A program made the translations under genes and the position numbers. Of a stretch of 64,000 nucleotides of DNA, positions 26,913-49,434 are shown in pieces. The notes below the pieces were generated by a model that did not search any database, was not told where the DNA came from, and saw nothing but the letters and a program-made list of their open reading frames with translations. The stretch comes from Paramacrobiotus metropolitanus (Eukaryota > Tardigrada > Eutardigrada > Parachela > Macrobiotidae). Within the stretch, counting starts at the first letter, position 1. Each line of letters opens with the position of its first letter. Location: NCBI RefSeq assembly GCF_019649055.1, contig NW_026570223.1, positions 930,001-994,000 of the forward strand. The letters are read 5' to 3'.

Positions 26913-27248
26913 TCTAATGCTAGATCCAGAATGGATCCAGGGACGGAGACAGAAACGGAATCTATCCCGTGGAGTGAGCAATACGATCTGGATTGCGAGC
27001 TATGCGGAAACACAAAACGTCGCACCGTAATCGCTGACTTTAATAATATTGAAAGTCTGGATAACAGAAAATCAACACTGATCGGCACAGCTCGATCGTA
27101 AAACGTGGAGCCAATTCCACACTGTGCAATACTGTGCAGCACGTGCTAAGCCGCACCCACTAGCCAATCAGAGACGAGACACAACACAGACACGTAATCC
27201 ATGGCGAGTAGCGTCACGGACGTGAACGCTAGTGAACCCCCGCTCACA
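26913..27248 (-). repeat. 3' LTR of the giant element
   Basis: 336 bp; begins TGTGAGCGGGGG on the minus strand and ends CATTAGA. It contains an ATTGG (inverse CCAAT) box. The coding-strand tract just before it is C-rich (CATCCCCCCAGAGGCA), not a typical polypurine tract. Confidence 0.95.
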
Positions 27249-28683
27249 TGCCTCTGGGGGGATGCCGAGCTCCGTTGAGGCTGGACACACTCCCGAATCC
27301 ACGAAAAGACGGCGGTCGCCGGTGTCTGTGCGTGCTCAAAAACATCAAATTCTCTTATTCCTTTTTATCACATCAATTCCATAAGGCACAATTCCATTTA
27401 ACAAGATGTGAATAAAGAGATCCATTTAGAAAAATACTATCATTTAACAGATCAACAGTTATAAGATCAACAGAAGTATTAATCAAAATGTAGACTAGGA
27501 TCCTCCATTTCTGACTCATAAAGGTCACAGGTCCTGTCCACCGTTTCCGCACTTTGGCCCATTTCGCTCTATTGAGCAATTCCGCGCATCCATAGTGCGA
27601 CTTTCATCACAATCCGCTTGAGAATCAGGTGCGTATCAAGTACGACTTAGGAATACTGCTTCTTCTTTGGAATAAGGTGCGTATCAATTGTACGACTCCA
27701 AAATGAGATCCAATAAAGGTCATGGAGGGACGTCATGTAGACAAGCGTAGTTCGCTTCCTCCCTGATTGGTCATCTTCTGTCGAGATGATCCGTTGAGAT
27801 GTGCGACTCGTTTTGGGTTAGTGGTCCCAAAAAGGTCATGCGACTTGAATTCCAATGCGGTGACTCTGTTGGGCGGTAATGATCCCAAAGGTCATCCAAC
27901 TTCTCTTCAAACTTCAATTAAAGGTCATGGAGGAACTCAGCCAGTTTTCTGCGGCTTCAAGCACTTCTTTGCTTGCCTCCCTGGTAAAACTTTTGGTTTG
28001 ACCTTTCCGTCGCACATCCAACTTTAATATGCCTCGAGCGGCCAGAGTGCCGGCAAAGTTTACCGTAACATCTCTGATGGGGCCGGCTAACTACCGCATT
28101 AAATTTACCTCACGACGCTTCCACTTTTAATCTTTGACTTTTGTTCGCCGCTTGTGGCCCAACTTCGGTACGAGAGATCCGGCTTGGTTGCCGCTATTTC
28201 TCTCGTTGATTTTTAACACTGGGTCGCTCGGAGAGATTGCCGGCATAGTTTACCGTAGCAACTCTAATGAGGCCGGCTGACTGCCGCATCAAGTTTACCT
28301 CATTAATATTTCCACCTGTTGTCTTTCTCTTTTTCGCCGCTTGTGGCCCACTTTCGTATTCAAGAGATCCGGCTTGATTACCGTAGTTTCTCTTGCCAAT
28401 TTATAACATTGAATCGCTTAAGGAGGAGAGCCGGCTAACTGCCGTAGCAACTCCCTTGGGGCCGGCTTTATAGACCGAATCAATTTCAACCCCAATCGCT
28501 GCTCCACATGATTTCTTTATCCTTTGCGGTTCTGTGCTATAAATGCTGAAAACAACAAATACACAAATACAGTTTATAGTAATATGTCATGTCGCCCTTA
28601 TATACCACACCATGTTTCATTTTTGTGACGTACCGACATATGCCGTAGACGCCCTTTTAATAGTGTGATCCTAACGATCAACA
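27249..28683. other. 3' non-coding tail of the giant element with 190-bp tandem repeat
   Basis: No ORF is supported. A unit of 190 bp starting CGGCAAAGTTTACCGTA (28051) recurs at 28241 and partly near 28432. Each copy carries a GCCGGCTNACTNCCGCAT stretch and CGCCGCTTGTGGCCCA. Six AAAGGTCA octamers lie between 27519 and 28010. Polyadenylation signals cannot be assigned. Confidence 0.7.
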
Positions 28684-28960
28684 CTATTCCGTTTCATTTG
28701 AGTCGCCGTCGCCATCGCTTGGCGGGCGCCTCTTAGCGTTTTCCGGTTGATTACGGTCGGACGTTCGGTCAACTGGTTCCGTGGAATCAACTGCCATGAC
28801 CTTTTCCGGGTCAACTTCTCGCTGACCGCGACCTTTCCCTTGGCGACTGCGTTTAACCGCCTCTACCCGATGGCGTGCGTCATTTTCTTCCAACCGCAGT
28901 CTTCGATTGTTGGGGTCATCTGCTAGTCGACGCTGTACATCGGCGAGATTCTCCGGAGCT
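28684..28960 (-). CDS. Giant element ORF X4, short 3' frame
   Basis: An open frame with no ATG that overlaps the end of ORF X3 in another frame. It encodes a very basic and acidic, low-complexity tail (RHRVEAVKRSRQGKGRGQR) ending at 28684. It could be a frameshift extension of X3 or read-through debris. No homology recognised. Confidence 0.4.
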
Positions 28961-31400
28961 GCTGGTTTCGTAGACCACGTCGTCCAATCTGGTTAGGAGC
29001 GCGTTCTGGGCGCCGATCACTTTTCTTCACAAGGAATTCATCAATGTACGTTTCAACTCCGTCCACTGGTTCGACGTAGTCACTTCCCATGGTGTCTTTG
29101 ATCTTGTTGATCCTCTCTTCAACTTGGGAGGCATGTCGTTGTGTAAGATTGCCCTTTTCCATTCGTATTTTGCACTTTTTCAGCGCCTTTCTTGCCGTAT
29201 GGGCTATCCCGACATGTTCCATGGGTTCTCCCAATTTCGCCACATGCGGTCGAAAGAGCGGTGGGATATCATCTTTCATGGTATTAGATACCAACTGATT
29301 CTGTGTCTTATAATGTGCCAATCTCGCAGCGAAAACCTTTTGCCCCATCCTTCTTGCGGCATGGTCTTTAGGATCCACTTGTAATCCGATCGATGCTCTT
29401 GCTGCGAGCAACTTGAAGGCTGGATTCACGTGTCGTAAAACAAACTGAGCCACATATTCTTGTCGTTCGGGATAGTCTCTATAATAGAATTGTGTCATCC
29501 CGACTGGGTCAGTCGTATCCAGTGGCACGTCCAACAAATTCAAATCCAGCAGACTATGTAATCCGTTTCGTCGGACAGGGAGGTAACAATCCCTTACTGA
29601 ATCGCGGGGGATGTATAATCGACGGAAACTTCCTTGTTCCACTCCCTCTCTAATTTCTTTCGCGTAGCCCGAATCGAATAAGAATTGGCGAAGCTGATTC
29701 AGGATCGTGTGAATCTTATTCGCATCCGCCGAATCGTCTTCAATCCCCATGTATCGGCAAATTTCCATCTTCTGTTCATCGGTATCTCTCATATCATATT
29801 CCATATCGATTGTGTCGGGGTGTCGATTATTGAATCGTGAAGTCGTTCGCCGGTCGCGTTCCTCCGGTTCGCGCTGACCTTCTTGTTCACGTCGTCCGCT
29901 CTGCGGCGTTTCGTTACCCGTCGATGTGGACGGTTGAAGGTCACTGTCAAGGACCACGTTTCTTCGGTGTATCACGTTCTCTTGGGACGCTTCTGCGACT
30001 GAACTGGCTCCTTCCATCGGGTCATCTTCTTGAGCAGCGCTAATGATTGGATTCACCACATGGACCGTTGACTCCATTCTCTGATACTTCGGGGGTGAAT
30101 CTTCCCTTTCTGCGCTCGATGACCTTTTACTTGCGCCAGATTCAAAACCCGCATAATACTTGGCTCTTTCCTGCCATCGTTTATCCTGTGGGTCTGGCGT
30201 TCTAATTCGCGTGTGTTCGCGTCTTTTATCCCATGACCTTTCAGGTGTTGACATTCTAACATTGCGGTTGCGGAATCCAACTTCCAACGGCACCTGATGA
30301 CCTTTCTTGTCAGGCTCTGTACGGTACGTCTCCGCACGCCATTGCTCTTCACGTCCTCTTGTCGCGGCCAAAATCTTTGCCGTATCGATTTTCCGCTGAA
30401 TACTCGTCTCGGTAATCTCGTTTCCATGGCGTACCCAGCCTCTTCCGCCACGATAATCGCGATCACGGGAACGTTCGCGTGACCTTTCGCTGCGGTAATC
30501 ACGTGTCCTTTAACGGGAGTATTCACGTGACCTTTCATTTCGTCGTTCAGAAGTTCGTTCGTGTTCGCGTGAATGTCCGCGTGACCTTTCTCTATGCGGA
30601 GGCGAACGAGGTCGTGTAAACCCATCATCTCGTCTGAATCCTCTAAGCGCCTGTAGGACATTGCTCTCGTTCTGACGGGATTTGCGCAGCTCCTCCATAC
30701 GTTCTTCAACTGCCTTCTTTATGTATGGTGCTGGAGCGAAACCCTTCTGCAGTCTCAACTTTTCCCGTAACAGCGCATCAAATAAGTCCTGTTGCATGGC
30801 CGCCGGATCGCTTGTCAGCGTATCGATCTGAATGATGAGCGACTGGCGTATCAGCTGTGCTTCGTCTTCGTTGAGGCTGGCTGTCGCTACAGTCGAACTC
30901 GACGGACTGGGCAGCGCCTCTCGTGCGGCCTGTTCGCTCGCCTTTTGATTCGCCGCATTGATCTTCGCCCGGAGTTCATCCTCCAGCTGTTGCCGCCGCA
31001 TCTTCTCTTGATCTTCCTCGAACTTCTTCCGGTATGCGTCCGTCTGTGGGCATTTCAATGGCTCCAAAGTCTCGTCCCAACCACTTTCGTTATTCTGGAT
31101 CGCTTCTCGGTAACGATCCTCGAGGAGCATTCGCTCTTCTACTGGGATGCTGCCATAATTCCTCGCGTTGATGAGGTTTCTAAAAACGTCCAAGTTCCCT
31201 CGTTTAGCTTCCATGATCCCAACGAGTGAAACAATGTGGCGGTCCCCCAAGTTGTGAACGCATGTGTAGCACGGGAACTTCTTATCAACCTTTCTGTTAT
31301 TCCGTAAACAGTCCGGACACTTTGGGTTGTAGCCCGTAGATCTGTTTATCTCTGATGCGGGTCCTGAGCTTTTAGGAGTGGCTTGACCTTTCTGTGCCAT
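28923..31400 (-). CDS. Giant element ORF X3 (interrupted by one in-frame TAA)
   Basis: Starts at a true ATG (MAQKGQATPK) at 31400. A Cys cluster, CPDCLRNNRKVDKKFPCYTC at about residues 25-45, suggests zinc binding. A charged, Ala/Gln-rich coiled-coil-like region follows (about 120-210), then an Arg/Ser/Glu-repeat linker. That linker is cut by TAA at 30510-30512, yet RS-type repeats continue in the same frame (RSERSRERSRDRDYRGG), so one ancestral ORF of about 825 codons is likely. The last ~270 residues look globular (DANKIHTILNQLRQFLFDSG, then YIPRDSVRDCYLPVRRNG). It lies where env would be, but I see no signal peptide, membrane anchor or glycosylation-rich ectodomain. Function unknown. Confidence 0.6.
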
Positions 31401-31760
31401 CTTCTCCGTTTTAAATCTGCAATCAAAAACAATCCATCATAGTAACCTTTCCACGTTAATCTTTTCCATCTTATCCATTATCTAGGCTTCTCTAGCATTT
31501 TTACGCCTATTCCGTTACTGAGCTGAGACTTTCCTAGCTCCTGCTGCCCTTTCTATCACTGTAACGTGGTGACCTTTCTCACGTTATCAGCACTTTCTGA
31601 CTACTGTGACCTTTTTTATTAGTCTTATCGCCGCTACTTCTCGAGTTGACCTTTTCGCTTTCAATTTCCCGTAAAACTTTTCTCTTTCGTTTTTAACTAT
31701 TTTATGCTTTTTCTGTAATATGCAGGGTTCATTACTCGCTGCATATTACACTCGTCCCCT

Positions 31761-33815
31761 TCATTCAGACTCTTTCGCCGGCGGGTTATACGGTTTGAAG
31801 TCCACTCGGCCGTCCTTGTTAATATGCAGTGCATTCTCCGCGATCAGAGCTTCAACAGCGTTTTTGATCCACTCTTTATCATTTTCAATGTTCAACTCTC
31901 CCAGTTCGTAATGGACGGCCATGAAGTTCGAGAGGTCATTCCATGACGCTCCATTGGTACCGCCAATGGCGTCCAAAGCCACATCTGTGATGGCTATCTT
32001 CCAGGCCTCCAGCTCCATTTTAAGTCTGGGTGTGCGGTCCGTGCCCTGTTTCGGAAGGTAGTAAATAACTTTGTTGTCCTTGTTATATTTGCATCCCAAC
32101 TTTCCGTCCTTATACGCTCGTTTCAGGACCCGCTCACTCATGCTGAGTGACGATCTTCCTTTCGAATTTTCGGCGACTTGTCTCTTCAATTCCGTCCCGA
32201 GCCTCTCGTGTTCTCTGGTGATCTGAATCGCCGCCTGGACTTCGTTCCATGTTCGGTTATTCACGTCCAACGGTGCTCCTAACGTGTAATCTGTCGCTTC
32301 CTTTATACTGGTGGTTTCTGTTTTCTGGGGGGATAATGCCGAGTCCGTTGGGTCAGTTGTCTCCTTTTCATCAATCCTCAATTTTGCCAGCGAGCCAGAT
32401 GATGACTGCGCCGATTTCGGTTCATCAGCTTTCTCCTTCTGTGGTAAAGTCTCGTGACCTCCCACGTCGCCTGTCGACTTCGAGCGTTCTTTCTCAAAGA
32501 CCTCCTTCAATGGTGCGAACAATGATTTCTGATACACTTGTCGCGCGGAGGCTGCTTCTGCTTCTGCCGCTGCCTTGTCCATCGGGAGCATGACCTTTTC
32601 TTTCTCCCGTTTTTCTGAAGCCCCGTGACCTTTCGGTTGAATTTCTTCCGTCGCAGTTCCAGATGTCTCTTGACCTTTAGATTGTTTATCTTGCGCTGTC
32701 GCTGGTGTCGTGGTATCATCGCCACTTTCTTCCGATTCGGAATCCATGGGTCCCTTCTTTTTCGACACTTTCGGTGCTTGTGCTTTAACCCGTACGGTTC
32801 CTTCCTCAGCTGTTAACTGCGCGATCCGATTCAATATGGGAGTTGTCGGGTCTCCACTCGATGGCACCCTTTCCATCTCCTGACTGTCGGACATGTTACA
32901 ACGGTTTTGTTTTTCCGGCGGTATCAGGCCTACTCTCGTATATCGGATCGGATATCCTTGATGTGCGTTCGTTGTAGCAAGGATGTTCTGTTTTATCATC
33001 CTCGGCAACGCGCGTTCAGTGGCCGTATCGATTTCCTTTATCATCCCTTTTCCGTCATTCCAAACAGCGTTGATATATTGGCTGATCCGGTGACTCGTTG
33101 ACCCTAACGGGCTTGTCATTCCCGCGATTGCCCTTTCCACTCGCATTGAGCTATCTTCATTTGGAGTCGTCAGCGACTTGTCCAAACTTGACGGTCTGAA
33201 CAGTTTAGCCTTATACGCGAAATTCGGATGTTTCTGGAGAAGTTTTCCCGCGTTCCGAGCGTATTCCAGTACCACATCGAACTTCTGTTTGGTGAAGCTG
33301 CGGTGCATTTCTTTTCTCAGGTATTTCTTTAAGCCCGTTCTGAATTTTGACGTTACTGATGTGGTTCTTATTCGTGTAAAGTTCTTCTCCGCTCCATTGA
33401 ACGCATCAATAATTTCGTCAATCGTGGTCATATTATCACTGTCCGGGTCTTCAAATTCTGCTTCATCTCCTGAATAATCAAGTTCACTGTCACCGTCCGG
33501 TTCGATGTAAGTGGCCATTGCCAATGCGTCGATTTTCATGGCCTCTTTTCCTTTCTTTTTCAGCTTTGCGGGTTCGCTCTTTGCTTTTTTCCCTTTTTCC
33601 AGAACCTCCGCTAGGCTTCTTGGTTCTGTAGTTCTCGATCGAGTCGTTTTCGGGTCCGTGTGTGACCTCGCGCTAACCGTCGAAGTACTTGGAAGGCTCA
33701 CTTCCGATGCTTCTGATTCACGGGACGTCTCCCGTTTCGCTTTCTCCCGCATTCCTTTCTCCCTGCGTTTTTTCGTAGTGGATGCCAAGATGACGACTGG
33801 AACAATCTGTTTCAC
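31761..33815 (-). CDS. Giant element ORF X2
   Basis: 684 codons from the GTG at 33815, but the frame is open without an ATG to about 34020, inside the end of ORF X1. Frameshifting from X1 is therefore a plausible means of expression. Highly charged and Ser/Thr-rich in the first half and middle. Two parts look folded: residues about 135-280 (IDEIIDAFNGAEKNFTRIRT on, rich in Lys and aromatic residues) and the C-terminal ~140 residues (RTWNEVQAAIQITREHERL on). No recognised family. AAAGGTCA occurs here encoded as KGH, KGQ and KVT. Confidence 0.55.
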   Translation of the reverse strand: MKQIVPVVILASTTKKRREKGMREKAKRETSRESEASEVSLPSTSTVSARSHTDPKTTRSRTTEPRSLAEVLEKGKKAKSEPAKLKKKGKEAMKIDALAMATYIEPDGDSELDYSGDEAEFEDPDSDNMTTIDEIIDAFNGAEKNFTRIRTTSVTSKFRTGLKKYLRKEMHRSFTKQKFDVVLEYARNAGKLLQKHPNFAYKAKLFRPSSLDKSLTTPNEDSSMRVERAIAGMTSPLGSTSHRISQYINAVWNDGKGMIKEIDTATERALPRMIKQNILATTNAHQGYPIRYTRVGLIPPEKQNRCNMSDSQEMERVPSSGDPTTPILNRIAQLTAEEGTVRVKAQAPKVSKKKGPMDSESEESGDDTTTPATAQDKQSKGQETSGTATEEIQPKGHGASEKREKEKVMLPMDKAAAEAEAASARQVYQKSLFAPLKEVFEKERSKSTGDVGGHETLPQKEKADEPKSAQSSSGSLAKLRIDEKETTDPTDSALSPQKTETTSIKEATDYTLGAPLDVNNRTWNEVQAAIQITREHERLGTELKRQVAENSKGRSSLSMSERVLKRAYKDGKLGCKYNKDNKVIYYLPKQGTDRTPRLKMELEAWKIAITDVALDAIGGTNGASWNDLSNFMAVHYELGELNIENDKEWIKNAVEALIAENALHINKDGRVDFKPYNPPAKESE

Positions 33816-33904
33816 AGCTATGACCTTTCCTTTGGATGTTGACGGCTCGGGCTCGGTGACCTTTGACTTCGATGTAGCCGGTTCAATGACAAATTTCTTT
33901 GGGA

Positions 33905-36652
33905 TTATAGGTGTCGGTGACCTTTCCCCAACTTCGGCGACTGATTCCTCCAGTATTTCGACATCGTGAGAGGGCGGTTCGTCTTTTTCCTTCCTCTCTC
34001 CTTTTTCCTCCGGGTGCTTGTGCTCTCGCTTTCATCACCGCTCTTTTTTTTCTTATCTTCATCTTCCTTTCGTTTCTTTATAAAGTCACCTTTCTTAGCC
34101 CTTTCACGGTTCATGGCTTCATCCAGTTTAGCCGTTTTCCTCGGTTTAACGACCACTTTCGGAGGCTGATTATCTTCCTCGGCCATGTCGTCGTCTTCAT
34201 CGGCCTGTTCCTCTGCCGAATCATCGTTAGCTTCCTCCTCTTCTGATTCGTCCTGTTTCGATGGTCTCTGGGTACTCTCCGTTCCTGCCTCTTCGGCTAC
34301 GGAGGCCTCTGCCATTTCTCCGGCTCCACTTTCTTGTGCCGGGTGTTGGGCCTGACTTTCCAAATGTGGTGTTTCTTTAGCCGGTGCCTGTGTAACGATC
34401 TCCCACAGGGGATTTTTCTTCGCGTCATAAAACACCGTTTTATACGCTCCGTTTTCCATCTTTCTTGTGAGTCGAAAATGGGCTTCGTCTATCTCCGCTC
34501 GATGTCGCATCATGCTGATCAGCGTGTTCGCTTGAATCAAAGGATCTTGACGTTCACTTACTGGTATCAGGTTCCACAGCTGTTCTAGTGCTGCCCGATT
34601 GGCGTGTTCGGCGCTCTCTTCCGACACATCCCATGGAGCGTATGGAATCGGATCCCCTGTGATCGGGTCGACGATTACTGCGGTCAAACAATCCGTTGTT
34701 CCATCGCCGAAGTGGAGTGTCAGCGTCACTTTTCTGCACGTTCCATCGGTATATTTCAGGGTCGACTCATAATCGTCTAATGTTCGCTTGCTCGGGTCTG
34801 GGTCTGCTGTTGATTTCGGCCGAATTCTCTCTTTCGTCAGCAATTTCCCGTCCACTGTGTATGTGTATGCCAGGTGGTCGTCATTTGTACCCACTTTAAT
34901 GCGGATCCATGCGTTTTCTTCGACCGCAACTTTGGACACCACGTGCTTCATCATCTGAATGAGGACTCTCGGATTATGACGTTCCTCCGGAGGAATGAAC
35001 TGTAGCGCCTCATTGACTTCTGTCTTTGACCTTTCCCCAATCTCGGTTTTAACTGATTTATCCGCTAAAGGGTTGTACGATTCGATCTCTTTATTCGTTG
35101 CTTTATCGACTATCCGAGCGGTGACCTTTCGTTCGTTATGATCCGTTCCAGTGTATTTAACTGTAAAAGTCCGGCACTTCGGAAATCGAACTGAAGCAGC
35201 TTCTGGGTCCAACGGCGTGGGTGGTGCACTCTTTCTACCCACTGGGATCGGTGCTTTACTCGTCGTGACCTTTTTCATCCGCTGCTCCTTCTTGTCACTT
35301 TCTTTTGGACTTGTCGTCGGTGACCTTATTTTTTTTCTGCTTTTTACGGTCCCGCTAGACGGCTCTATAACCGAACTGGTGCGTCCACGTACTGATCCTG
35401 CGGTTGAGCTTGCCCGTGATCTTTCTGCTCGTTCGGTTAATTCTGTCTCAATCTTTCTCTTTGTTTCCAGGAGAGCACTGTCCGACATCTCCTCTACTGG
35501 TGCTTCAACTAATGCCCGTGATGGCCCCGCTGTGCTGCTTGTCGAGGGTCCCCTTTCTTTAGGAATCGTCTTAAGGAATAGTTGTATCTTCTCAATCATC
35601 GGTGGCCATTTTCTGTTAGTTAAGGCCGGGTGGTACTGTTTCATCGAGGCGATTCTGATCGCCAACTCTTTACGTTTAACTTCGATGACTTTAGTTTTTT
35701 CTTTCATCGCGATATGGACTGCTTCAATAATCGCGTCCAGACTCATTAATCTTCCATAGAATGCATGTTCGTCCTCGACTCGCATGTGGATTCTATAGAG
35801 ATCCCGACACATTCGGTTAAAATCCTGGATGGCCGCTGTATCAGCCGCTGTCAGTCTTTCTTCGTTGCCCACTATCATGTTCAGTCGCGCATCATCTTCT
35901 TTCATGTCTAGCGGGAGTTTCGGTGAATAATCATGTACGGTTGGTTCACCCGGGGGCGTTGCCCGTAGACCATCTGGTCCGACCTGCTCCAAATTTGGGC
36001 CCAGCGACGGCAGTACTCCTCGCGGTCGTGGTGAATCAAACCGATTTCCGCCTCGCTTCCCTCCTTTTTGTGGCGAGTTCCTGTGAAATCGTTGCGCTCC
36101 AAGTTGCTGCGGTGTTCTCATACGAGGCGTTCCGATATCTAACAATGATAGGCCTCCCGATTCTGGGAAAGGTGGAAATATCGGAGATGACCTTTGCGAC
36201 TGGGTCGCTAACATTCCGCCGAATCCTCCATGGCCCATAAATCTACTCGGTGTAGTCTGTTGCGGTGGCGGCATTAACATTCTTGCCGGTCCCATAACTT
36301 GCGGTGGTCCCATCGGTGGGGTATACGATCCCGGATGCGGTTGGTAGGGGGCATTCGTTAATTGTCCCGAATACTGGGTTCCGGCGAGTGAGCCATGGTG
36401 CACCCAGCTAACCGTATCTTGATAATTCGTCGGCTGTCCCGGATCGTGATACGCATAATACTCCGGCCTGCTGTAGTAACCTCCTTGGCCTGGTTCGTTC
36501 TGTGCCGTTCCGATTGACGATGTCGACCCTTCGCCATATGAAGTATCATATCCATATTCACCTTCCATTCTCTTTGGGGTCGATATCTTTAATGGATTTC
36601 CAATACTTTCCGAATCCGAATTCTCTGAATTCTGTCGTTCCAATCTATCCAT
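33905..36652 (-). CDS. Giant element ORF X1, 915 aa with a duplicated novel domain
   Basis: Starts at an ATG (MDRLERQNSENSDSES). Residues 1-250 are Gly/Pro/Ser/Tyr-rich and disordered. A helical region lies at 260-360, then a low-complexity basic stretch. Two tandem copies of a domain of about 115 residues follow, at about 494-610 and 640-760. Each has a VTARIVD/LTAVIVD strand, IPPEERHNPRVLIQMMKHV or IPVSERQDPLIQANTLISMM, and a basic strand near its end. The tail is Asp/Glu-rich and then Lys-rich. No signal peptide, no transmembrane segment, no Env features. I recognise no family. Confidence 0.6.
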   Translation of the reverse strand: MDRLERQNSENSDSESIGNPLKISTPKRMEGEYGYDTSYGEGSTSSIGTAQNEPGQGGYYSRPEYYAYHDPGQPTNYQDTVSWVHHGSLAGTQYSGQLTNAPYQPHPGSYTPPMGPPQVMGPARMLMPPPQQTTPSRFMGHGGFGGMLATQSQRSSPIFPPFPESGGLSLLDIGTPRMRTPQQLGAQRFHRNSPQKGGKRGGNRFDSPRPRGVLPSLGPNLEQVGPDGLRATPPGEPTVHDYSPKLPLDMKEDDARLNMIVGNEERLTAADTAAIQDFNRMCRDLYRIHMRVEDEHAFYGRLMSLDAIIEAVHIAMKEKTKVIEVKRKELAIRIASMKQYHPALTNRKWPPMIEKIQLFLKTIPKERGPSTSSTAGPSRALVEAPVEEMSDSALLETKRKIETELTERAERSRASSTAGSVRGRTSSVIEPSSGTVKSRKKIRSPTTSPKESDKKEQRMKKVTTSKAPIPVGRKSAPPTPLDPEAASVRFPKCRTFTVKYTGTDHNERKVTARIVDKATNKEIESYNPLADKSVKTEIGERSKTEVNEALQFIPPEERHNPRVLIQMMKHVVSKVAVEENAWIRIKVGTNDDHLAYTYTVDGKLLTKERIRPKSTADPDPSKRTLDDYESTLKYTDGTCRKVTLTLHFGDGTTDCLTAVIVDPITGDPIPYAPWDVSEESAEHANRAALEQLWNLIPVSERQDPLIQANTLISMMRHRAEIDEAHFRLTRKMENGAYKTVFYDAKKNPLWEIVTQAPAKETPHLESQAQHPAQESGAGEMAEASVAEEAGTESTQRPSKQDESEEEEANDDSAEEQADEDDDMAEEDNQPPKVVVKPRKTAKLDEAMNRERAKKGDFIKKRKEDEDKKKKSGDESESTSTRRKKERGRKKTNRPLTMSKYWRNQSPKLGKGHRHL

Positions 36653-36777
36653 TAACTGAGCTTACCTTCTGTAACAATGAAACAATATTGATTAGCTCTC
36701 ATAACGGTGATGACCTTTTTACAGCTTCCCAACTCCTATTTTTAGTGAAGTGAACCCCTTATTCATCTTTATGTGGG

Positions 36778-38322: not shown

Positions 38323-38616
38323 TCAAAAGAACGGATGTCCGACCTTTATCTCTTGCAATTTACCGGGTGGGCATTTCCTCGGTGTTTTACGGAACTGACA
38401 TCCTTGGCAGGCAGTTATGTAATTCTTCACGTCTGTACTCATTCGATCCCAATAATATCGGAGTCGGATTGCTGTCAATGTCTTTTCAAATCCCAAATGT
38501 CTTGCCGCTTTCTCGTCGTGTAATGCGTGGATTATCGCTCTTCGCATCGACAACGGCACCACATATGACCTTTCAAGTTTGCCATTTTTATCCTTTACTC
38601 GGTATAGTATGCCGTT
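38323..38616 (-). CDS. Integrase zinc-binding (HHCC) segment
   Basis: Lies between in-frame stops TAA (38617) and TGA (38323). The H-H-C-C signature is visible: HALHDEKAARHLGFEKT, then CQGCQFRK. YYWDRMSTDVKNYITAC is typical of gypsy integrase_H2C2 domains. The first residues (NGILYRVKDKNGK) are the normal RNase H to integrase linker, so the TAA breaks an otherwise continuous polyprotein. Confidence 0.82.
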   Translation of the reverse strand, partial: NGILYRVKDKNGKLERSYVVPLSMRRAIIHALHDEKAARHLGFEKTLTAIRLRYYWDRMSTDVKNYITACQGCQFRKTPRKCPPGKLQEIKVGHPFF

Positions 38617-40917
38617 TTACAACTGGTAATGAACTTCAAATTTCGATCTCGTTTCAGCATCTGGTAGATGTTCCAATTCATCTATTATCATCGCCAGATG
38701 AGGATCTTTTAACTGTTTATTCCGTAGCTGCAGATTTGAGTCATCCTCTTCTTCTTCATCACCTTGCAGGTTAACGATGCGGACTGTCGCCGTACTGAGT
38801 TCATTCCAATCTTTGATGACCTTACAGCGTGGTAATGGCTTATACCTTTTTTTCATCTGTTTCGGGAATCGCAACAGCTTAATTGGGCATTCATTCAGCG
38901 CTTGAGTAACTTTGTCCGTTTCCCAAAGGTCATCTTTAATCTCCTTTGTTTCGTCAGGTCCCGTGACCTTTTCATTCTGCTTTTTAGATTCCGCATCAAG
39001 TCCAGTGACCTTTAAGTCACTAACGGTGGGCAACCAGCTTTTTACGCGGTTCACGTTTACGTTTACTTCTGGCTCAGCCGACTCATTCGCCGTAGCTGAG
39101 GTGACCTTTAACCGTTTTTCCCTCTGTTCCACCATCTGCAGGAACAACTGTCCAATTTCAATTGCTGGTTCTTTCGTGTCAAATTCCTTCTTGTAGTCCT
39201 CGAAATTTGGAATCTCATCAAATTCCTCCTCTTGGCACGTCGGACCTTCAATTGGTGCTCTTGATAACGCGTCTGCGTTGTCGCAGTATTTTCCGGGTTT
39301 ATATTCAATTTTAAACTGGTGGCCTTGTAATGCCATTGCCCATCTTGTCAATCGCGGATTCATCCCAACTTTATTTGTCTCTGACCTCAGCAAGTTAGTC
39401 AGCGCCTGATGATCCGTCCTTACGGTAAATTCCGCATAATCAATATACGGCTTGAATTTCCTGACAGCGAACACTACTGCCAGACATTCCCATTCCGTTA
39501 CGCCGTAATTTTTCTCGGCTCCATGCAGGACGCGGCTCGCATATGCGATTGGGTGTCCATCTTGTGACAGTACAGCTCCAATTCCCTCTTTGCTCGCGTC
39601 ACATTCGATGACGGTCGGTTTTGCCGGGTCAAACTTTGCCAGTACTGGACCTTCACACAACAACTTTTTCAAGCTATTGAACTCTTCCTCGTGTACTGCT
39701 GTCCAGTCCTTTTTCACGTGTTTATCTTGTCTCAGCAACTCATACAAGTGGCAAGTCTTCTGTGCGTATCCCATTATGAACTTGCGATAATAATTTGCCA
39801 GTCCAAGGAATGACCTTAACTGCCTTTCTGTTTGAGGTCGTTTGAATTCTGAGACCGCGGTGACCTTTTCCGGATCCATGCGAATTCCGTCTTCACTGAG
39901 TATATGACCCAGGAATCCCATTTGTCTCATTCCGAATTCGCATTTGGTTGGTTTAATCGTGAATCCCGCTTCAACCAGACTCATTAAGACATTCCTCAAA
40001 TTCTGCATGAAGATCGCCCAAGTCTTTCCGGCGAAAATTACGTCATCAATATATCCGAAAACACAACCCTTTCTTTTCGCTTTTGAAAGTACTTTATCCA
40101 TACACAATTGAAATGTTGCCGGTCCGTTGCAGACTCCAAATGGCATTCTTTTAAATCGGTACATTCCGTCTTGCGTTACAAAGGTCGTCTTGTTGATTGA
40201 CGCCGGATCCACTGGGATCTGCCAGAATCCACTTTGCAAGTCCATTTTCCCGTAATATTTGTTGCCTGCACACGCGTCGAGCAATTCATCTGGATTCGGT
40301 AGCGGGTAATTATTCTTTCTCGTCAGCTTGTTAAGCATGATGTAACTGACACAAAATCTCGTCCCCATTGTTCCGTCGCCATTTTTCTTTACTGCCAGTA
40401 CGACTGGGAAACTCCACTCGGCGTCCGACGGCTCGATTACATCTTGTGCCAACATTTCTTCAATATGCTTTGTTATGAACTCGCGGCCTGTCCAACTCGT
40501 TCTGGCCGGGTTGCATTTAACTGGTTTCGCGTCTCCCGTATCGATTACATGAGTGACCCCTTTCACATCTCCATATGGTTTCTTTGATGTGGGTAAGACC
40601 TTCCAGAATTCCCAGAACGCGTTATACACGTCATTCTTTTGTTCCTCAGTTAGGTCGGGTCCTAATTTCAGGTTTCCAATTATCTTTGTCAGTTCAGCTT
40701 TCGTCGTATCGTCCACCTCTGGGTCCTCGAGCACGTTCTTTACTGTCCCAGCTGTCCCAGCGTTGACCTTTACATTTTCCATATGTTCATACGGTTCAAC
40801 GTATCCGAGAAGCTGATTTTTCTTCACGACTCGGTATTTGCTACTGTGATTCGCGATGACGATTTCAAAGTATTTTCCCTGTGATCCGTCACTCCTGCCA
40901 ACGGTTGCACTTCAGTT
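38617..40917 (-). CDS. Reverse transcriptase - RNase H
   Basis: Open from 40917 without an ATG; GTG at 40827. RT motifs in order: WSFPVVLAVKKNGDG, RFCVSYIMLNKLT, NYPLPNPDELLD, YGKMDLQSGFWQIPV, FKRMPFGVCNGPATFQ, GYIDDVIFAG (catalytic YIDD), CEFGMRQMGFLGHILSEDGI. RNase H follows with IECDASKEGIGAVLSQDG, AYASRVLHGAEKNYGVTEWE and VRTDHQALTNLL. An acidic linker of about 200 residues leads to the integrase. The N-terminal pre-RT segment lies in another frame (40824-41012, TRVKVKMGKYAPAQNK), so a frameshift separates them. Confidence 0.92.
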
Positions 40918-41025
40918 TCCACTTGTGGGACCGGTGTAAACATCAACTTGTTCTGAGCCGGTGCATATTTTCCCATCTTGACCTTTACCCGTGTGCAGTT
41001 TGACGGTTTCAATTTAATTCTTTGG

Positions 41026-42468
41026 TCACTGTAGACTTTTAATCACATCTTTCGACATTCTAGCCTTTTCCACTTTCAATCTTCTGACTTTAATTTCTTT
41101 TTCTTCGTCCACTTCGTCATCTTCATCCAGATCCATTAAGTCCTCTTGTTCTGAAAGGTCACTTACACCTGAATCTTCCGAAGTCGTTGAGTTATCACTT
41201 GAACTCGTCCACTCGGAGTCCGAGTTACTGCTCTCATATTCCTGTGCAGTAGCTTGACCTTTATCAGCCTTTTCGAGTGGGCGCTCATCAACTCCTTCAT
41301 CTTCTGATGAAAGGTCACTTTCGTTTTCCCGCGAATCACTAAGTTTTTTCACTTTTGAATTTTTGAGCAGGGGTTTGTCCCCTTCTTTTGCCTTTCGCCC
41401 ATTTCGTGCAGCGACTCTTGGGTGACTCCTTGCTACCCGGATTCTCGTTGGTGACCTTTCTGATTGATCGGAGTTTGACCTTTCTTCGTCCGATTTTGAC
41501 TTTTCTATTTTCTCAAGGTTCGTTAATGGCTTTTCGGTCAACTCGACCGGCGGACATTCCTCACCGTTATCGAGTGACCTTTCCCCGTTTTTTGCCTCAG
41601 TTACTGGGTTTTGTTGTTCATTCGATATCCTTTCGACTTCCTCTTTGAACTTCTTCCACATTTCACCTCTATCTGTTAACATCCGTGCGATGTCGAAAGC
41701 CGACTTTGAACTTTCTTCCGTTTCGTTCGATCCTCCTTCAACTATCTCTTCAACTGGTTCCTCTTTGTCTGCTTCTTTTACTGTCCCCTTATCAGCTTCA
41801 TCCTGTTGGACCGTCTCGTAGCCTTTAGGTCGTTTGGGACCAACGAAAACACAATTTGCCATCAGCTCTTCAGTAACCCAGTCATCACTCGGAATCGTTT
41901 CATACATGCACCACGTGTCACCACCTCGTTCTGGGTATTCCACTCCATCTGGATCTGGTGCAAAGGTCACCTTTTTCTTTTCTATCAACCCCGGTAAACT
42001 TCTTTTCCGGGTTACTTGCAACTCTCGCATTTCCTTTATGTCGAATATAGGAATCTCCGCTTCAAATTTCGTCCAATATCTAGCAAATATGTTCCAGTCG
42101 TTTTCTTTTAGTGCTTTACAGAACACCACTACTGACTCATATACCGGTGTACCGAGTCCTGTTGGGAATATAACTGTTCTCCCTTGACCTTTGTACATGT
42201 GGTTTATGCGGAAGTCCCAGAACAATTCTATTCTAGCTTCTTCCCATAGCTGTACTTCCTCGTTCATTGAGTCTATCTCTCTTTCAAGTTTCCGCTCAGT
42301 TAATACCGGGTCAAGGGGATCTTGGATTCCGTTATCCACACGTTGCTGCCAATGGTTCAGCCATTTTCCTCTCCCCGTAATGAAGTTTTTCACACATGAC
42401 AACCAAGTCCGATATCTGTTCCAATGATACCGCTCGATGTGTGGCTTCCACATTTCGTTTGTCCGCAT
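41026..42468 (-). CDS. Giant element 480-codon ORF between protease and RT
   Basis: Overlaps the end of the protease ORF by 79 nt in the next frame and shares the frame of RT. The first ~170 residues look globular and Trp-rich (MWKPHIERYHWNRYRTWLSC, then WKPH/WLNHW-type motifs and GRTVIFPTGLGTPVYES). The rest is acidic, Ser/Glu-rich and probably disordered. I do not recognise a known pol domain. Its position suggests a PR-RT spacer domain peculiar to this element. Confidence 0.55.
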   Translation of the reverse strand: MRTNEMWKPHIERYHWNRYRTWLSCVKNFITGRGKWLNHWQQRVDNGIQDPLDPVLTERKLEREIDSMNEEVQLWEEARIELFWDFRINHMYKGQGRTVIFPTGLGTPVYESVVVFCKALKENDWNIFARYWTKFEAEIPIFDIKEMRELQVTRKRSLPGLIEKKKVTFAPDPDGVEYPERGGDTWCMYETIPSDDWVTEELMANCVFVGPKRPKGYETVQQDEADKGTVKEADKEEPVEEIVEGGSNETEESSKSAFDIARMLTDRGEMWKKFKEEVERISNEQQNPVTEAKNGERSLDNGEECPPVELTEKPLTNLEKIEKSKSDEERSNSDQSERSPTRIRVARSHPRVAARNGRKAKEGDKPLLKNSKVKKLSDSRENESDLSSEDEGVDERPLEKADKGQATAQEYESSNSDSEWTSSSDNSTTSEDSGVSDLSEQEDLMDLDEDDEVDEEKEIKVRRLKVEKARMSKDVIKSLQ

Positions 42469-45400
42469 GATGCTTTTCGTTTTCTTTTGACTTGACCTTT
42501 AAGATCTGATGATGCAGCGTTACACCTCGGCCATTCTGAAGGGTCATCTTGGGAGGCGTTTTGGCAACATTCAGTGCATTCCCATTGTGGTTGCACTCTA
42601 CACTGGTCCTCGTAGTAACCGTGTCCGCAACTCCCCATTCGTTCTTCTGGAGTTAATATCCTTCGGTTCGTTTGCGGGTTGGCGACCTCCTTCTCCTGTG
42701 TCGTGGCTTTCTGCTCACATTCGATTTCTGTCACACTCGCATCGTCGGAGGATATTTCAATAATCTTTGTTTCGTTGTTCAGTTGGTGACCTTTTAACCG
42801 TTCAAGCGCTTTGTCGCGGATTTCGCTCGCGAACATCTGTTCTTCTTCAGCTATGCGTTTCAATATCCGCAACCTTTCACTCTTTTTATCCTTCCCCACT
42901 TTGGCCGACTTTACCCCCAGTGCCTCTGGTACTGGGATAGGCTTTGCCCACTCCATGCCAGGCACGAGTGATTGTTTCGCTGCAGCTGTCGCTTCTTTCT
43001 GTGTGGCCACTATCTTTTCAAGTGTTGGTGACCTTTCGTCGTTGATAGCAGAGTGTGGTTCGAAAAAGGGTTCCTTCTGAGGGTCACGTTCTGTTACTTC
43101 TTCTTTGGATTTATCTGGTGACCTTTCATTTTGGGTAACAGATCGAGGTCCGAAGAAATTCGGAGTACGCTCTGGTACTTTTATCGCCGGTGACCTTTCA
43201 TCTTTCTTTCCCAGTGCCTCTGGTACTGGGATAACTTTTTCAACACATTCTTTTTCTGTGGCTCCTTGCTCACAGTTATCTGCGATCATACTTCTCCCAT
43301 CCGGGAGAAATATGATCGCCTCATCCGTGTCTGGCGCAAGCGGTTCCTTTTTCCTCTCGTTCACTTTTTTGACATTTCCACTTTCACTTTTCTTCTCCGG
43401 TGCCTCTGGTACCGGGATTGTCCGTTGGCTAATCTCGTGCTGCTGCACTCTCGTCATTCCCGGTGCCTCTGGTACTGGGATGACCTTTTCTCTTCCCTTT
43501 TGTTTCAGCATTATCCGGTTTAGTGTGTTTTCAATCTCCTGTTGAATCATTTGCAGCTGCTCAAATGGTGACAATTCTTTTTTCGCCCTCATTTCCTTTG
43601 CCTTTCCCGGTGCCTCTGGTACTGGGATTAGCGTTTTATTAACCGTTTGTGCATTTCCCGTCTGTTTTGCAAGTTCGGTGACCTTTCCGACTTGAACTTT
43701 GGCGATCGGTTTCGGGTCATCTTCTTTCTCTTCTTCGCCTTTATTATCCATTAGTACGAACTTCTTCTCTAAGAAGTCGAATCCCAGTAGCACCTGTACA
43801 TCGTCGCACTTCGGTCGGACGTAGAATGAATGTTCGCTAGTCTTTTTCCTTAAGGTCACTGGTGCTACACAGTAATGCGTTACCAGGAATCCTGACGTTC
43901 CACTAATTCCGTTTATCTTCACCAATCTGTCTGGTGGCAATGGGAGCATGTGCAGTCCATTCTTTTCGCAAAACGGTTTGCTGATCAGCGACGTCTCAGC
44001 GCCGGTGTCCAACATTGCGTTGACCTTTATGTCTCCCACTTTCACTTCATGTGTGTACGCTTCAATTCTTTTGGGCAGTTTTCCGTTTTGAATCTTCAAC
44101 GTGTGAATCTTGCATTTCACAGGAATCAACGATACTGGTCCCGGATCCATATCGGGAAGCACTTGCCCTTTAGCTGGAGTGCCATGACCTTTCAGTATCT
44201 CGCTCAACTTATCAATCCTGTGTGGAACGTCAGTTCGAACGTCGTAAAATTGTCGCGGTTTTGTCTTGTCAACTTGCTTTTCTGTAGCCGTTTTACCACT
44301 GGTGATCTTTTCAGCCTTCTGCACTTGCTCATTCGCTTTTGTGCTGTCCGCGTGACCTTTAGTCGCTTCATTTATCGTCTGATGAATCAGTTCCTCTTTA
44401 CGGTTTTCATTTCGTTTGTCTCGCAACTTCTCAATGACTTCAATTGTTATTTGATCAACTCGCTTCAATTCGTCTTCTTCGCTATCTTTCGTCTCATCTG
44501 GTGACCTTTCATATGTAACCATATCATATCCCTTTTCGGTCATCCATTCAATCACCTTTGCTGACACTTCATTATTCGTTTTCGTCGGATTAGTCTGCGA
44601 AGACATTCCGTCCGTTCGGGCTGGTGATTTGTCGTTGGCATCCTTTTGTAATGCTTGCGATAAGTCCCGTGACCTTTTAGCTGCGCTACTCTGTTGCGTT
44701 TGCGCCATCTCATTTGACCGTCCTTTTTGTTCATTTTGCGCTAAGTCCTGTGACCTTTCATTGCGCTTCATGACAAATCCGCCGCCCGTCAACTTTTGTA
44801 TGGGAACTTTTTCTCCATAATTCGGCGGTTTATCCTGTGGCGGAACGTTGCGTGAGTAGTTCCAGTCGGCGAATATCTTCTTATATTCCTCTGCATTGAA
44901 TACTGGAACTGGGTTGGATTGCGCTGGTTTCCCGGTAACCAACTCTTCTAATCGCTTTCTTTCACATTGCGTTCGCAACTGTTGCATATCCCAGTAATCC
45001 TCTTGTGACATTCTCGCTTTCTGCTTCGCTTTTGGCGTTACGGGTACCCACATCCCGTGATTCCCATTCGGTCTGTAGGCTACTTTTTGCCATATTTCCT
45101 TCCGTTGCAGCGTTACTGCATCCACAAGTGAGTCATCGGAGTTTTGTTGTGCCAGTTCGCTATTCTTCTGCTGCGCTGTTCGCAGTGTCAAGTCTGTTTC
45201 TTGACCTTTTAGCACGGCGCTTTCACCGTGACCTTTAGCGTTCGCACTTGCTCCTTTACTTTTCACCTGGACTTTTCCTACGGAAGGTGACCTCTGGTGA
45301 TTCAGTATGCCGTGTTCTTCCATATATTCTCGGAATTTCGAATGGTGCACTTCTTCATCCTCTTCTGTAGTGCTATTCTGCGGCTTCTTCTGATTCAGCA

Positions 45401-45875
45401 TCGCTTGTTGAATCTTCGCATTGCGTAATGCACGGCGTTCAGCTAACACCTTTTCGCTGCAATACGGTAACCTTTCATTTTGCTGCGCTGTTCGCAGTGT
45501 CGCGCTACCGTCACGACGATTTCCACTCGCAGTACCATTCTGCGGTGACCTTTGGTCCCGTTGCGCGTTTCCACTCGCAGTACCATTCTGCGGTGACCTT
45601 CGGTCCCGTTGCGCGTTTCCACTCGCAGTACCATTCTGCGGTGACCTTTTATCCACTTGTACTGGTTTCCCGATAACCAGTTCGTTTTGCTGCTGTGACG
45701 GCATCCTTATAGCCGTTTCAATTTCCTTTTGCAATGTCGACATCCATTTAGCCGTTTCAATTTGCTGTGGCGGCATCCATATAGCCGTTTGCTGTGGTTG
45801 CGGCATCCATATAGCCGGTCCACTTTCTTTCTTTGTCGACGGCATCCTTATAGCCGTTGCACTCTTCACGTTCAC
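42390..45875 (-). CDS. Protease-containing ORF with multiple internal repeats, 1161 aa
   Basis: Begins MNVKSATAIRMPSTKKESG, 84 nt after gag in another frame. The N-terminal 150 residues are repeats: AIWMP-type units and three 16-residue PQNGTASGNAQRDRRS units, with 48-49-nt DNA periodicity at about 45530-45660. A retropepsin lies at about residues 610-710, with AMLDTGAETSLISKPF and the closing LLGFDFLE. Five PVPEA[PL] peptides and two FFEP/FFGP peptides follow. The last ~80 residues hold a Cys/His cluster (CGHGYYEDQC, CTECCQ). Cleaves the Gag-Pol products; the role of the repeats is unknown. Confidence 0.82.
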   Translation of the reverse strand: MNVKSATAIRMPSTKKESGPAIWMPQPQQTAIWMPPQQIETAKWMSTLQKEIETAIRMPSQQQNELVIGKPVQVDKRSPQNGTASGNAQRDRRSPQNGTASGNAQRDQRSPQNGTASGNRRDGSATLRTAQQNERLPYCSEKVLAERRALRNAKIQQAMLNQKKPQNSTTEEDEEVHHSKFREYMEEHGILNHQRSPSVGKVQVKSKGASANAKGHGESAVLKGQETDLTLRTAQQKNSELAQQNSDDSLVDAVTLQRKEIWQKVAYRPNGNHGMWVPVTPKAKQKARMSQEDYWDMQQLRTQCERKRLEELVTGKPAQSNPVPVFNAEEYKKIFADWNYSRNVPPQDKPPNYGEKVPIQKLTGGGFVMKRNERSQDLAQNEQKGRSNEMAQTQQSSAAKRSRDLSQALQKDANDKSPARTDGMSSQTNPTKTNNEVSAKVIEWMTEKGYDMVTYERSPDETKDSEEDELKRVDQITIEVIEKLRDKRNENRKEELIHQTINEATKGHADSTKANEQVQKAEKITSGKTATEKQVDKTKPRQFYDVRTDVPHRIDKLSEILKGHGTPAKGQVLPDMDPGPVSLIPVKCKIHTLKIQNGKLPKRIEAYTHEVKVGDIKVNAMLDTGAETSLISKPFCEKNGLHMLPLPPDRLVKINGISGTSGFLVTHYCVAPVTLRKKTSEHSFYVRPKCDDVQVLLGFDFLEKKFVLMDNKGEEEKEDDPKPIAKVQVGKVTELAKQTGNAQTVNKTLIPVPEAPGKAKEMRAKKELSPFEQLQMIQQEIENTLNRIMLKQKGREKVIPVPEAPGMTRVQQHEISQRTIPVPEAPEKKSESGNVKKVNERKKEPLAPDTDEAIIFLPDGRSMIADNCEQGATEKECVEKVIPVPEALGKKDERSPAIKVPERTPNFFGPRSVTQNERSPDKSKEEVTERDPQKEPFFEPHSAINDERSPTLEKIVATQKEATAAAKQSLVPGMEWAKPIPVPEALGVKSAKVGKDKKSERLRILKRIAEEEQMFASEIRDKALERLKGHQLNNETKIIEISSDDASVTEIECEQKATTQEKEVANPQTNRRILTPEERMGSCGHGYYEDQCRVQPQWECTECCQNASQDDPSEWPRCNAASSDLKGQVKRKRKASCGQTKCGSHTSSGIIGTDIGLGCHV

Positions 45876-45958
45876 TGCAGTACCATTCTGCAGTGACCTT
45901 TCCGTTCTCCGTTTATCCGGTGGTTTCGGGTCGGGTCGATCAGTAGGCTCACCGGTGC

Positions 45959-47818
45959 CTACTGATCTTGCCCGTTTCCCTGAACCGGCGCACCTCCTTG
46001 TTGAGCGCCTTGCACATTCCCTTGTTGCTGTCCAAAATTATTTGCCGGGTTCGGGTTCTGTCCGCCGCCGCCATTATTATATTGGCCACCACCCTGTTGG
46101 TAGTTTCCTTGGCCACCACCCTGTTGGTAGTTTCCTTGGCCACCTCCATTTCCGCCGTTTCGGTTGCCACCATTCCAGTTTCCACGACCGAAGCCTCTGT
46201 TTCTTCCTCTGAAGCCGCCGCGGCTGAAGCCACGATTGCCGCCGCCTTGACCACCATTTCCATTTCCATTTCCGTAATTTCCGTTTCCATTTTGATTTTG
46301 AAAGTTGGCTTTTTGCTGATACCATTGGGCGATTAGGTCGTATCCATTTGCCACCGCCTGACGCCAGCCGCCCGAATTGCGCAGCCGTTGCCACTCTCTG
46401 AAGGCAAACAAGTTCGGGTTCTGATCCGGCGGTGTGGTAGCGAACTTACATCCCTGGGTCTGGTGGTTGCCATACATACAGTATTGGCACATCTGCACAC
46501 CATTTGCAACCCATCCATCAATCATTTGAAACTTGAATTCCGTCCGTGACCCTTGATTCTGCTGGAAATTATTCTGATTCCCTCTGTTTGGTTGGAAGTT
46601 ACCTTGACCTTGACCTTGGTTTTGGAAGTTCCCTTGACCTCCATTCCAGTTTCCATTTCCATATCCGTTTCCACCAAAATTTCCGTTACCCATTCCTTGT
46701 TGTGGTAACCCAGTATTCAAAGGGGCCACGTTCTGTGGTACCGGTGGAGCTACATTCTGGGGTGCCGGTCTCACTTGAGCCGCTGCTTGTATTGCCGCTA
46801 CCATTGCGTACGTTATCGGTTGTCCCGTCTGACCGTCGATAAAGGTCACTCTTTCGGTGACTTCTCTAACAGGGGTTTCCGCACGATATTCCATTTGCTG
46901 CTGGGCTGGTGCAGCTGCCATTCTCTGTTGCGGTACATTTTCAACCTGGCCTTGGCGGATGGTCGCGTATTCTTGATTACGTTGACCTTTTGGTGCTTTA
47001 TATTTTTCTTCTCCCGCCGACCAATGCCGGAAGAAATCTTTGATCTCGGTTGGTGTTCTGCACTGTTGCGTTCGCAGTGCCTTATAGAGGTCACTGTCTA
47101 TTCTGCATCCTTCAATCAGGAAACCGACTGCTTGTTTTTCAGTGATAATTCGCTTCGCTTTGTATTTCATTATCGCCTGGTAAAACTGGTGAAGTGTTTC
47201 TTTTCCCAGGTCGAATTTCCTTGCCATGGCTTCCCGTAACCCAAGAACTTCTTCGTCACGGTCACCATATTCATCCTTGAATTTGGTCATCCATTCTGTA
47301 ACCGTATATTCGATCTCTTCCTGGAGTGCGATTTCTCTCTCTCCTTCGAACCAGATTTTTGCCGGTCCCTTCACCGCGCTAGCTATTTCGATTAAAATTT
47401 GATCATCAGTAAGTCGGTAGGTTCGCTGCGTATCCCTGACCAGTTGTGTCCAGCCATTAACTGTATCGCGACTTCCATCAAAGGTCACTAACGTCGTTTT
47501 CCGAGCCATCGAGTTGAGTGCTTTTGTCAATTGTGCCGCTGTCGATTCTGCTGTCAGGTCATCCTCCTCTTCGCTACTTTCATCGTCATTTTGGTTTCGT
47601 TTCGCCTTTCCGTAACGGGACTTCCGTGGGCGCTCTTGACGGCTGGAGGGTCTGTCCCGTCGGCCTTCGTCGATGTACACGTTCGTTTCGATATGCGAGG
47701 GATCGCCATGACTCGTGTGCGGATAGCCTCCTGATGGTGGCTCCTTGTCGTCTTTGACCTTTTCGCCGTCTCTTTCCGCTTTGATGCTTCCTTTACCGGT
47801 GCCAGTTCGTAGTGGCAT
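45959..47818 (-). CDS. Gag, 619 aa
   Basis: True ATG (MPLRTGTGKGSIKAERDG). The charged N-terminus (1-95) is followed by a gag capsid-like region (about 100-290) with VTFDGSRDTVNGWTQLVRDT, GPAKIWFEGE, WMTKFKDEYGD and ETLHQFYQAIMKYK. A Gln/Pro/Asn/Gly-rich stretch leads to a CCHC zinc knuckle, CQYCMYGNHQTQGC, at about 441-455. The C-terminus is a Gly/Asn/Gln and RGRN/RG-rich nucleic-acid-binding tail with two NYQQGGGQG repeats. Forms the particle and packages the RNA. Confidence 0.88.
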   Translation of the reverse strand: MPLRTGTGKGSIKAERDGEKVKDDKEPPSGGYPHTSHGDPSHIETNVYIDEGRRDRPSSRQERPRKSRYGKAKRNQNDDESSEEEDDLTAESTAAQLTKALNSMARKTTLVTFDGSRDTVNGWTQLVRDTQRTYRLTDDQILIEIASAVKGPAKIWFEGEREIALQEEIEYTVTEWMTKFKDEYGDRDEEVLGLREAMARKFDLGKETLHQFYQAIMKYKAKRIITEKQAVGFLIEGCRIDSDLYKALRTQQCRTPTEIKDFFRHWSAGEEKYKAPKGQRNQEYATIRQGQVENVPQQRMAAAPAQQQMEYRAETPVREVTERVTFIDGQTGQPITYAMVAAIQAAAQVRPAPQNVAPPVPQNVAPLNTGLPQQGMGNGNFGGNGYGNGNWNGGQGNFQNQGQGQGNFQPNRGNQNNFQQNQGSRTEFKFQMIDGWVANGVQMCQYCMYGNHQTQGCKFATTPPDQNPNLFAFREWQRLRNSGGWRQAVANGYDLIAQWYQQKANFQNQNGNGNYGNGNGNGGQGGGNRGFSRGGFRGRNRGFGRGNWNGGNRNGGNGGGQGNYQQGGGQGNYQQGGGQYNNGGGGQNPNPANNFGQQQGNVQGAQQGGAPVQGNGQDQ

Positions 47819-47977
47819 TTCAAAGTGGAAGCTTCTACCCGTGCCCGTCTCATGTGCCTTACTGTAACTGGGCGGGGCGACTCCACCGTTGTCGTTCGAA
47901 CTCCATATTGCAGGAGCTGTTCGTCTTTATGTTTGTTGGACATATTAAGCGCCTTATTTTCGCTCATTTTTCAACTT

Positions 47978-48215
47978 CGTTAAAAGGTCACTTTTTGGGT
48001 CAGCTTAATCGGTTCCAACTTTTTGGTAAAGGTCACCTCCAAACCCGACTCGGCTCAAAGGTCACTTTCCAGCTCAATTTCAAGTCAAAGGTCACTTTCC
48101 AACTCAATTTCAGTTAAAGGTCACTTTCCAGCTCAATTTCAATTAAAGGTCACTTTCCAGCTCAATTCAAGTCAAAGGTCACTTTTCCTTTGTCCCAACT
48201 CAAAGGGTCACTTTC
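47978..48215. repeat. AAAGGTCACTTTCC tandem repeat array in the leader
   Basis: A unit of about 28-31 bp (AAAGGTCACTTTCCAGCTCA followed by ATTTCAAnT) is repeated about six times with small changes. Orientation is opposite to most copies of the octamer in the coding part. Confidence 0.88.
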
Positions 48216-49430: not shown

Positions 49431-49434
49431 GTCG

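Follow-up and report, generated by a model that had tools for sequence, protein, structure and literature searches.

We analyzed a 64,000-nucleotide stretch of the 169.8 Mb genome of the tardigrade Paramacrobiotus metropolitanus (G000:C3:930001-994000, hereafter the window, with positions counted from its first letter), which contains a 22.5 kb retrotransposon on the minus strand. The element is of Ty3/gypsy type: it is bounded by a pair of 336 bp long terminal repeats (LTRs) with a single mismatch, a GTCG target duplication lies on either side, and Pfam matches follow along the minus strand in the order protease, reverse transcriptase (RT), RNase H, and integrase. Its interior is crowded with one exact octamer, AAAGGTCA (the word). 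The features are listed below in element sense, from 5′ to 3′.

26913..49430, minus strand: whole Ty3/gypsy-type LTR element, 22.5 kb; 76 words, all between 27520 and 48181
49095..49430, minus strand: 5′ LTR (element sense), without the word; GTCG duplication at 49431-49434
49082..49094, minus strand: primer-binding-site-like TGGTAGCAGAGCC, adjoining the 5′ LTR
48028..48216, no strand assigned: leader array with a 29-30-bp unit; every unit has TGACCTTT in element sense
45959..47926, minus strand: Gag-like open reading frame (ORF); CCHC knuckle by eye, no Pfam match
42390..46037, minus strand: ORF with aspartyl protease (Pfam); 18 words
41026..42498, minus strand: ORF without Pfam match, kept across the element family; 8 words
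38617..40911, minus strand: RT and RNase H (Pfam); 6 words
37594..38322, minus strand: integrase core (Pfam); 2 words
36778..37593, minus strand: ORF without Pfam match; 1 word
33905..36661, minus strand: fast-evolving ORF, 22-25% identical to its counterparts in a divergent subfamily; 5 words
31761..34031, minus strand: ORF with 6 words and no Pfam match, encoding a candidate DNA-binding protein
28923..31436, minus strand: last gene, with 7 words; a stop splits it into two frames in the window copy, and another copy has it as a single 937-aa frame
27520..27927, no strand assigned: five words in the tail, each TGACCTTT when read in element sense
26913..27248, minus strand: 3′ LTR (element sense), 336 bp, 1 mismatch to the 5′ LTR, without the word; flanked by GTCG at 26909-26912

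An exact count of AAAGGTCA/TGACCTTT gave 76 words in 26913-49436 (57 in element sense and 19 antisense), close to the roughly 75 estimated by eye in the first-pass annotation. The remaining 41,477 bases of the window hold five words, at 1784, 5295, 10089, 15030, and 63060, and not only four as stated there (63060 is added, and 10088 becomes 10089); the excess in the element is 28-fold. AAAGGTCA is the top 8-mer of the element, and after it is masked the next reaches 10. Genome-wide, AAAGGTCAC occurred 19,414 times and its reversed control 3,461 times, while GAAAGGTCACCA occurred 1,006 times compared with 25 for the control. Within the element, 57 of the 76 words lie in ORFs, and the sense words among them fall in all three frames (14/21/15), as had been claimed; the tandem array in the leader was also found, at 48028-48216, and a 48-bp repeat at 45520-45663 holds some further copies. 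The statement that the word occurs in every region proved too broad. No word was present in the LTRs (one LTR was checked in each of four copies of the element) or in the first 1.24 kb. In 5/5 copies of the window family the first word stands 1.24-1.27 kb inside the 5′ end; in the 4 of them that reach the 3′ end, the last word is 0.61-0.63 kb away from it. With the word confined to the interior, promoter activation is a poorer fit than distributed anti-silencing or self-marking.

Synonymous-codon shuffles of ten ORFs gave a summed mean of 4.9 words, compared with the 57 observed. Selection for a peptide, as KGH, ERS, or KVT, was ruled out by the use of three frames together with these shuffles. 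The flanks of the 76 words carry little information beyond the ninth base, which is C in 44, A in 16, T in 16, and G in none. The 24 one-mismatch neighbours of the word were counted 40 times in the element and 45 times in the other 41.5 kb, no more than a mild excess, and there is no decaying repeat in the element. With flanks unlike and one-mismatch neighbours only slightly raised, repeat copying fails to explain the majority of copies. Apparently, selection on the exact word accounts for most of them.

Seven long copies of the element were compared: five of the window family, the window copy included, and two of a divergent subfamily. Each of the six relatives carries the word in number (72-109, the lowest being a copy fetched only in part). 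In blastn alignments to the four window-family relatives, the word was intact at the homologous place in 59/67, 63/70, 48/53, and 38/48 cases, compared with 32, 44, 33, and 33% of other 8-mers; for the two divergent-subfamily copies the figures were 13/17 and 18/21, compared with 12%. Words interrupted by gaps in the alignment (2, 2, 3, 1, 1, and 0 across the six relatives) were left out of these counts. Overall, words were conserved at 76-91% and other 8-mers at 12-44%, and antisense words were likewise conserved. A protein-guided alignment with one divergent-subfamily copy revealed a different side of this conservation, in that only 9 of the 21 alignable window words stood in the same column and 23 of the 32 alignable words of the divergent copy were at new places. 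Word density is thus kept and position is not. The word is dense in both subfamilies available as long copies and in pieces of two further clades (3.0 and 4.3 kb); outside the elements, 6 words were found in 68.5 kb, comprising the window flanks and the flanks of 4 of the 6 fetched places. The first-pass annotation is borne out on the point that the nucleic acid and not a peptide is selected, by the three frames, the codon shuffles, and the conservation. Neither refuting outcome named there was seen: shuffled ORFs did not approach the observed count, and the divergent subfamily had the octamer at non-homologous places.

Both orientations of the word exceeded codon shuffles within ORFs in 7/7 copies (in the window copy, sense 50 vs 4.6 and antisense 7 vs 0.24). 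Over the seven long copies, G was avoided at the ninth base on both strands, being found in 8 of 447 sense and 0 of 184 antisense words. This strand symmetry supports a duplex-DNA reading. The stem-loop context of AAAGGTCA showed no excess over random, and a microRNA seed-site idea was dropped because antisense copies are also constrained. Spacing in the element body was not regular (coefficient of variation 1.04 vs 0.98 at random). Summed over the seven related copies, intervals below 24 bp were rare (11 vs about 38 expected) and those of 24-59 bp frequent (181 vs 78), figures inflated by arrays and kinship; the pattern is as for crowded protein sites. From these sequence comparisons, we read AAAGGTCA followed by C, A, or T as a candidate duplex-DNA binding word selected for density.

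The octamer is identical to the NBRE, the monomer site of NR4A/NGFI-B/HR38 receptors, as described in PMC4777543; the identity asserted in the first-pass annotation is exact. A search of the genome with an HR38-type domain as query found an HR38-like DNA-binding-domain candidate at C45:296812-298439, in three exons 83, 76, and 67% identical. The form with A in the first place dominates in the element, with 76 copies of AAAGGTCA and 2 of CAAGGTCA; given the site specificities of SF-1 and ERR, the scarcity of CAAGGTCA fits an NR4A-type reader rather than the SF-1/ERR types. Our preferred reading, to which we assign a probability of about 0.45, is that AAAGGTCA is a candidate duplex-DNA word kept dense by selection and read by a host receptor of the NR4A/HR38 type. 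Such a monomer-binding nuclear receptor would occupy integrated copies along their whole length and, once bound, would act as a distributed enhancer and anti-silencing platform. The leader array would be the densest part of this platform, and the number of words would matter, but not their exact position. The earlier interpretation was right on nucleic-acid selection, and its receptor part is plausible on sequence grounds.

Several observations weigh against the receptor. The seven long copies are related to one another and thus do not give independent counts. In the pieces of the two other clades, the ninth base is G in 2/29 and 1/13 words. The LTRs and the first 1.24 kb are free of the word, which is odd for a promoter activator. 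Words of the leader (47983-48216) and tail (27520-27927) are nearly all antisense and those of the body mostly sense, although composition in the leader and tail favours sense; a reader indifferent to orientation does not explain this bias. The host has many other nuclear receptors, with 63 zf-C4 exon matches in the genome. Finally, the places L003, L005, and L006 (C1:301093-304104, C1:733146-736736; L005 and L006 overlap) hold 4, 2, and 2 words and no similarity to the seven long copies was found in them, so the octamer also occurs beyond detectable family members, which counts against parts of the reading.

The reader may instead be encoded by the element itself, a serious rival reading, although we rate the receptor about twice as likely. 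A protein of this kind would recognize the word on its own DNA, as does VANC of Arabidopsis, and would lift silencing or else serve to condense, import, or mark the cDNA. In favour of this, the subfamilies have several of the extra ORFs in conserved form, and words spread over the whole interior would suit an element that recognizes itself. According to PMC5735166, the short motifs bound by VANC are those of its own family. The first candidate is the ORF at 31761-34031, the end of which contains the following feature.

31764..32006, minus strand: weak likeness to a linker histone in the last 81 residues of the ORF (Pfam E 0.049, 14.3 bits, cut-off 22.4)

The end of this ORF and the matching P0132 piece each match Linker_histone, a winged-helix family, at E 0.049 and below the cut-off, a likeness present in two subfamilies, but the match appears only when the piece is scanned alone and was absent when the seven proteins of alignment A4 were scanned whole against Pfam. 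A PDB profile search with the C-terminal piece returned two matches that are not credible (E 0.40 and 0.44), and structure prediction of two extra ORFs gave mean pLDDT values of 36.0 and 37.4, leaving both models, that of the candidate (pLDDT 36) included, unusable. Moreover, the word is common to diverged subfamilies whose ORFs are 22-50% identical, where VANC-type systems differ, and an exact NBRE would be a coincidence. Less likely again is another host DNA-binding protein serving insulation, tethering, or segregation, for which Su(Hw) on the leader array of gypsy is the model. The tandem array in the leader and the rarity of short intervals beside frequent ones of 24-59 bp speak for such a protein; however, most sites lie outside the array, and the word suggests no candidate besides nuclear receptors.

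That the word is read in RNA appears improbable. It could be a packaging or export signal, or TGACCUUU in the leader and tail could pair with AAAGGUCA in the body, given that these regions are complementary, antisense against mainly sense, and that the family does have RNA-type words. However, antisense copies in ORFs are also enriched, conserved, and subject to the same ninth-base rule, the stem-loop context is not above random, and pairing does not account for a ninth base that may be A or T but not G. Functionless spread by repeat copying, slippage, or mutation is hardly credible. A few copies do sit in tandem repeats (the leader units and the 48-bp repeat at 45520-45663), but for copies outside arrays this explanation is largely refuted by the dissimilar flanks, the only mild excess of one-mismatch neighbours, the codon shuffles, and a conservation far above that of other 8-mers. 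Of the alternatives raised in the first-pass annotation, the replication-driven repeat is disfavoured because common flanks are lacking, and the packaging word is disfavoured for AAAGGTCA, although separate RNA-type words exist in the family.

Such other words were seen in the divergent subfamily (L015-L020; C1:2473001-2501500, C1:2155001-2183500), whose two copies contain the gapped word GAGAANGG 45 and 47 times, in sense only; the five window-family copies contain it 1-7 times. With AAAGGTCA masked, 38 and 39 copies were left, compared with 6.3 and 6.9 expected from a Markov model, and between the two divergent-subfamily copies GAGAANGG was intact in 43/44 cases vs 72% for controls. Stems of at least 4 flank 35 and 33% of the sites, compared with 11-12% at random. 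GAGAANGG occurs in all frames. Two results count against a role in RNA: its number is only about 3-fold over codon shuffles (34 vs 11.3 in C1_2473, with overlapping ORFs summed), and the mean folding energy around it was not below random (−6.22 vs −6.22). The same subfamily has 9 and 10 GAAAGTAAC sites, 6 and 8 of which have stems of at least 5 that differ in sequence. These constant-loop hairpins (9-10) cluster between gag and protease (8645-9463 of L018-L020 joined, and the corresponding part of L015-L017). The corresponding stretch of the window copy holds another set of hairpins.

45528..45892, minus strand: four hairpins with the loop AATGGTA, near AAAGGTCA words

Three of these four lie inside the 48-bp tandem repeat. 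By sequence, GAGAANGG, GAAAGTAAC, and the AATGGTA words look like RNA signals; AAAGGTCA is without the marks of such words.

The element family has many members and is in part young. Searching the genome for RT gave at least 60 matches at 86-100% identity (the window copy included, and one copy counted in two matches), and 43 of the 60 matches listed had no internal stop. Matches to last-gene-like proteins were all in P. metropolitanus (13/13), as were those to another ORF of the element (10/10). TGGTAGCAGAGCC may resemble the initiator tRNA-Met primer site. By eye, no polypurine tract was apparent before the 3′ LTR (27249-27262), where TCCCCCCAGAGGCA and then TGTGAGCG in sense leave a purine run of only 5 bases; this tract is a priming signal and not a class-defining domain. 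Other repeats were noted in and near the element: five repeats encoding an IPVPEAPG-like peptide in the protease ORF (42914-43650), tandemly repeated units of about 190 bp in the 3′ tail (28044-28467), and, just outside the element at 26523-26591, 69 bases with about 80% likeness to the LTR end, which may be left from an older LTR. A titles-level literature search gave nothing on point for the octamer in retrotransposons or nematodes, giant or Ty3 LTR elements of tardigrades, retrotransposons of P. metropolitanus, or linker-histone ORFs in LTR elements.

Beyond the identity of the reader, we tentatively suggest, at rather less than even odds, that the word forms a duplex-DNA address code over the whole length of the element. 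Fitness would be set by the number of octamers, with genes, spacers, and leader written around them; the code would recruit a stress- or stage-linked host receptor or a protein of the element's own, and separate hairpin-loop words would address the RNA. If so, the protein code of a single retroelement would be overlaid by two codes in nucleic acid, the first read in DNA and the second in RNA. The RNA-type words of the family allow signals read in DNA and in RNA to be contrasted within it. The element is a clear example from nature of strong selection on how many copies of one DNA word a mobile element has, superimposed on coding sequence in all frames. An NR4A/HR38 reader would connect a retroelement with a stress-linked, immediate-early receptor in a stress-tolerant animal, and an element-encoded reader would be an animal parallel of VANC.

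Known systems share some of these properties. The DNA uptake sequences of Neisseria and Haemophilus are short exact words of which many copies are kept, within genes too and on either strand. AAAGGTCA is likewise exact, numerous, on both strands, and in genes, but uptake sequences serve bacterial transformation. The leader of Drosophila gypsy carries about a dozen Su(Hw) sites in one place. Our element, also Ty3/gypsy, resembles it in having an array in the leader, the sites in gypsy being those of a host protein, and differs in its word and in having dozens of copies over the whole interior and the ORFs. In the VANDAL transposons of Arabidopsis, as described in PMC5735166 and PMC10398659, a motif lying in non-coding tandem repeats varies between related families and is bound by the element protein VANC. 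In both systems, a DNA word of 8-9 bases is piled up in a transposon family, and in VANDAL it is a binding site affecting the whole element. Unlike the VANDAL motif, AAAGGTCA is not restricted to non-coding tandem repeats, since, the leader array notwithstanding, 57 of the 76 words are in ORFs and in all frames, and it does not differ between related families but is common to diverged subfamilies. VANC has been shown to bind, whereas the readers proposed here are candidates from sequence. Known NBREs have the identical octamer and are monomeric and non-palindromic, as in the element, according to PMC4777543. They stand singly in enhancers and promoters, whereas here the LTRs lack the octamer and 76 copies are spread over one mobile element.

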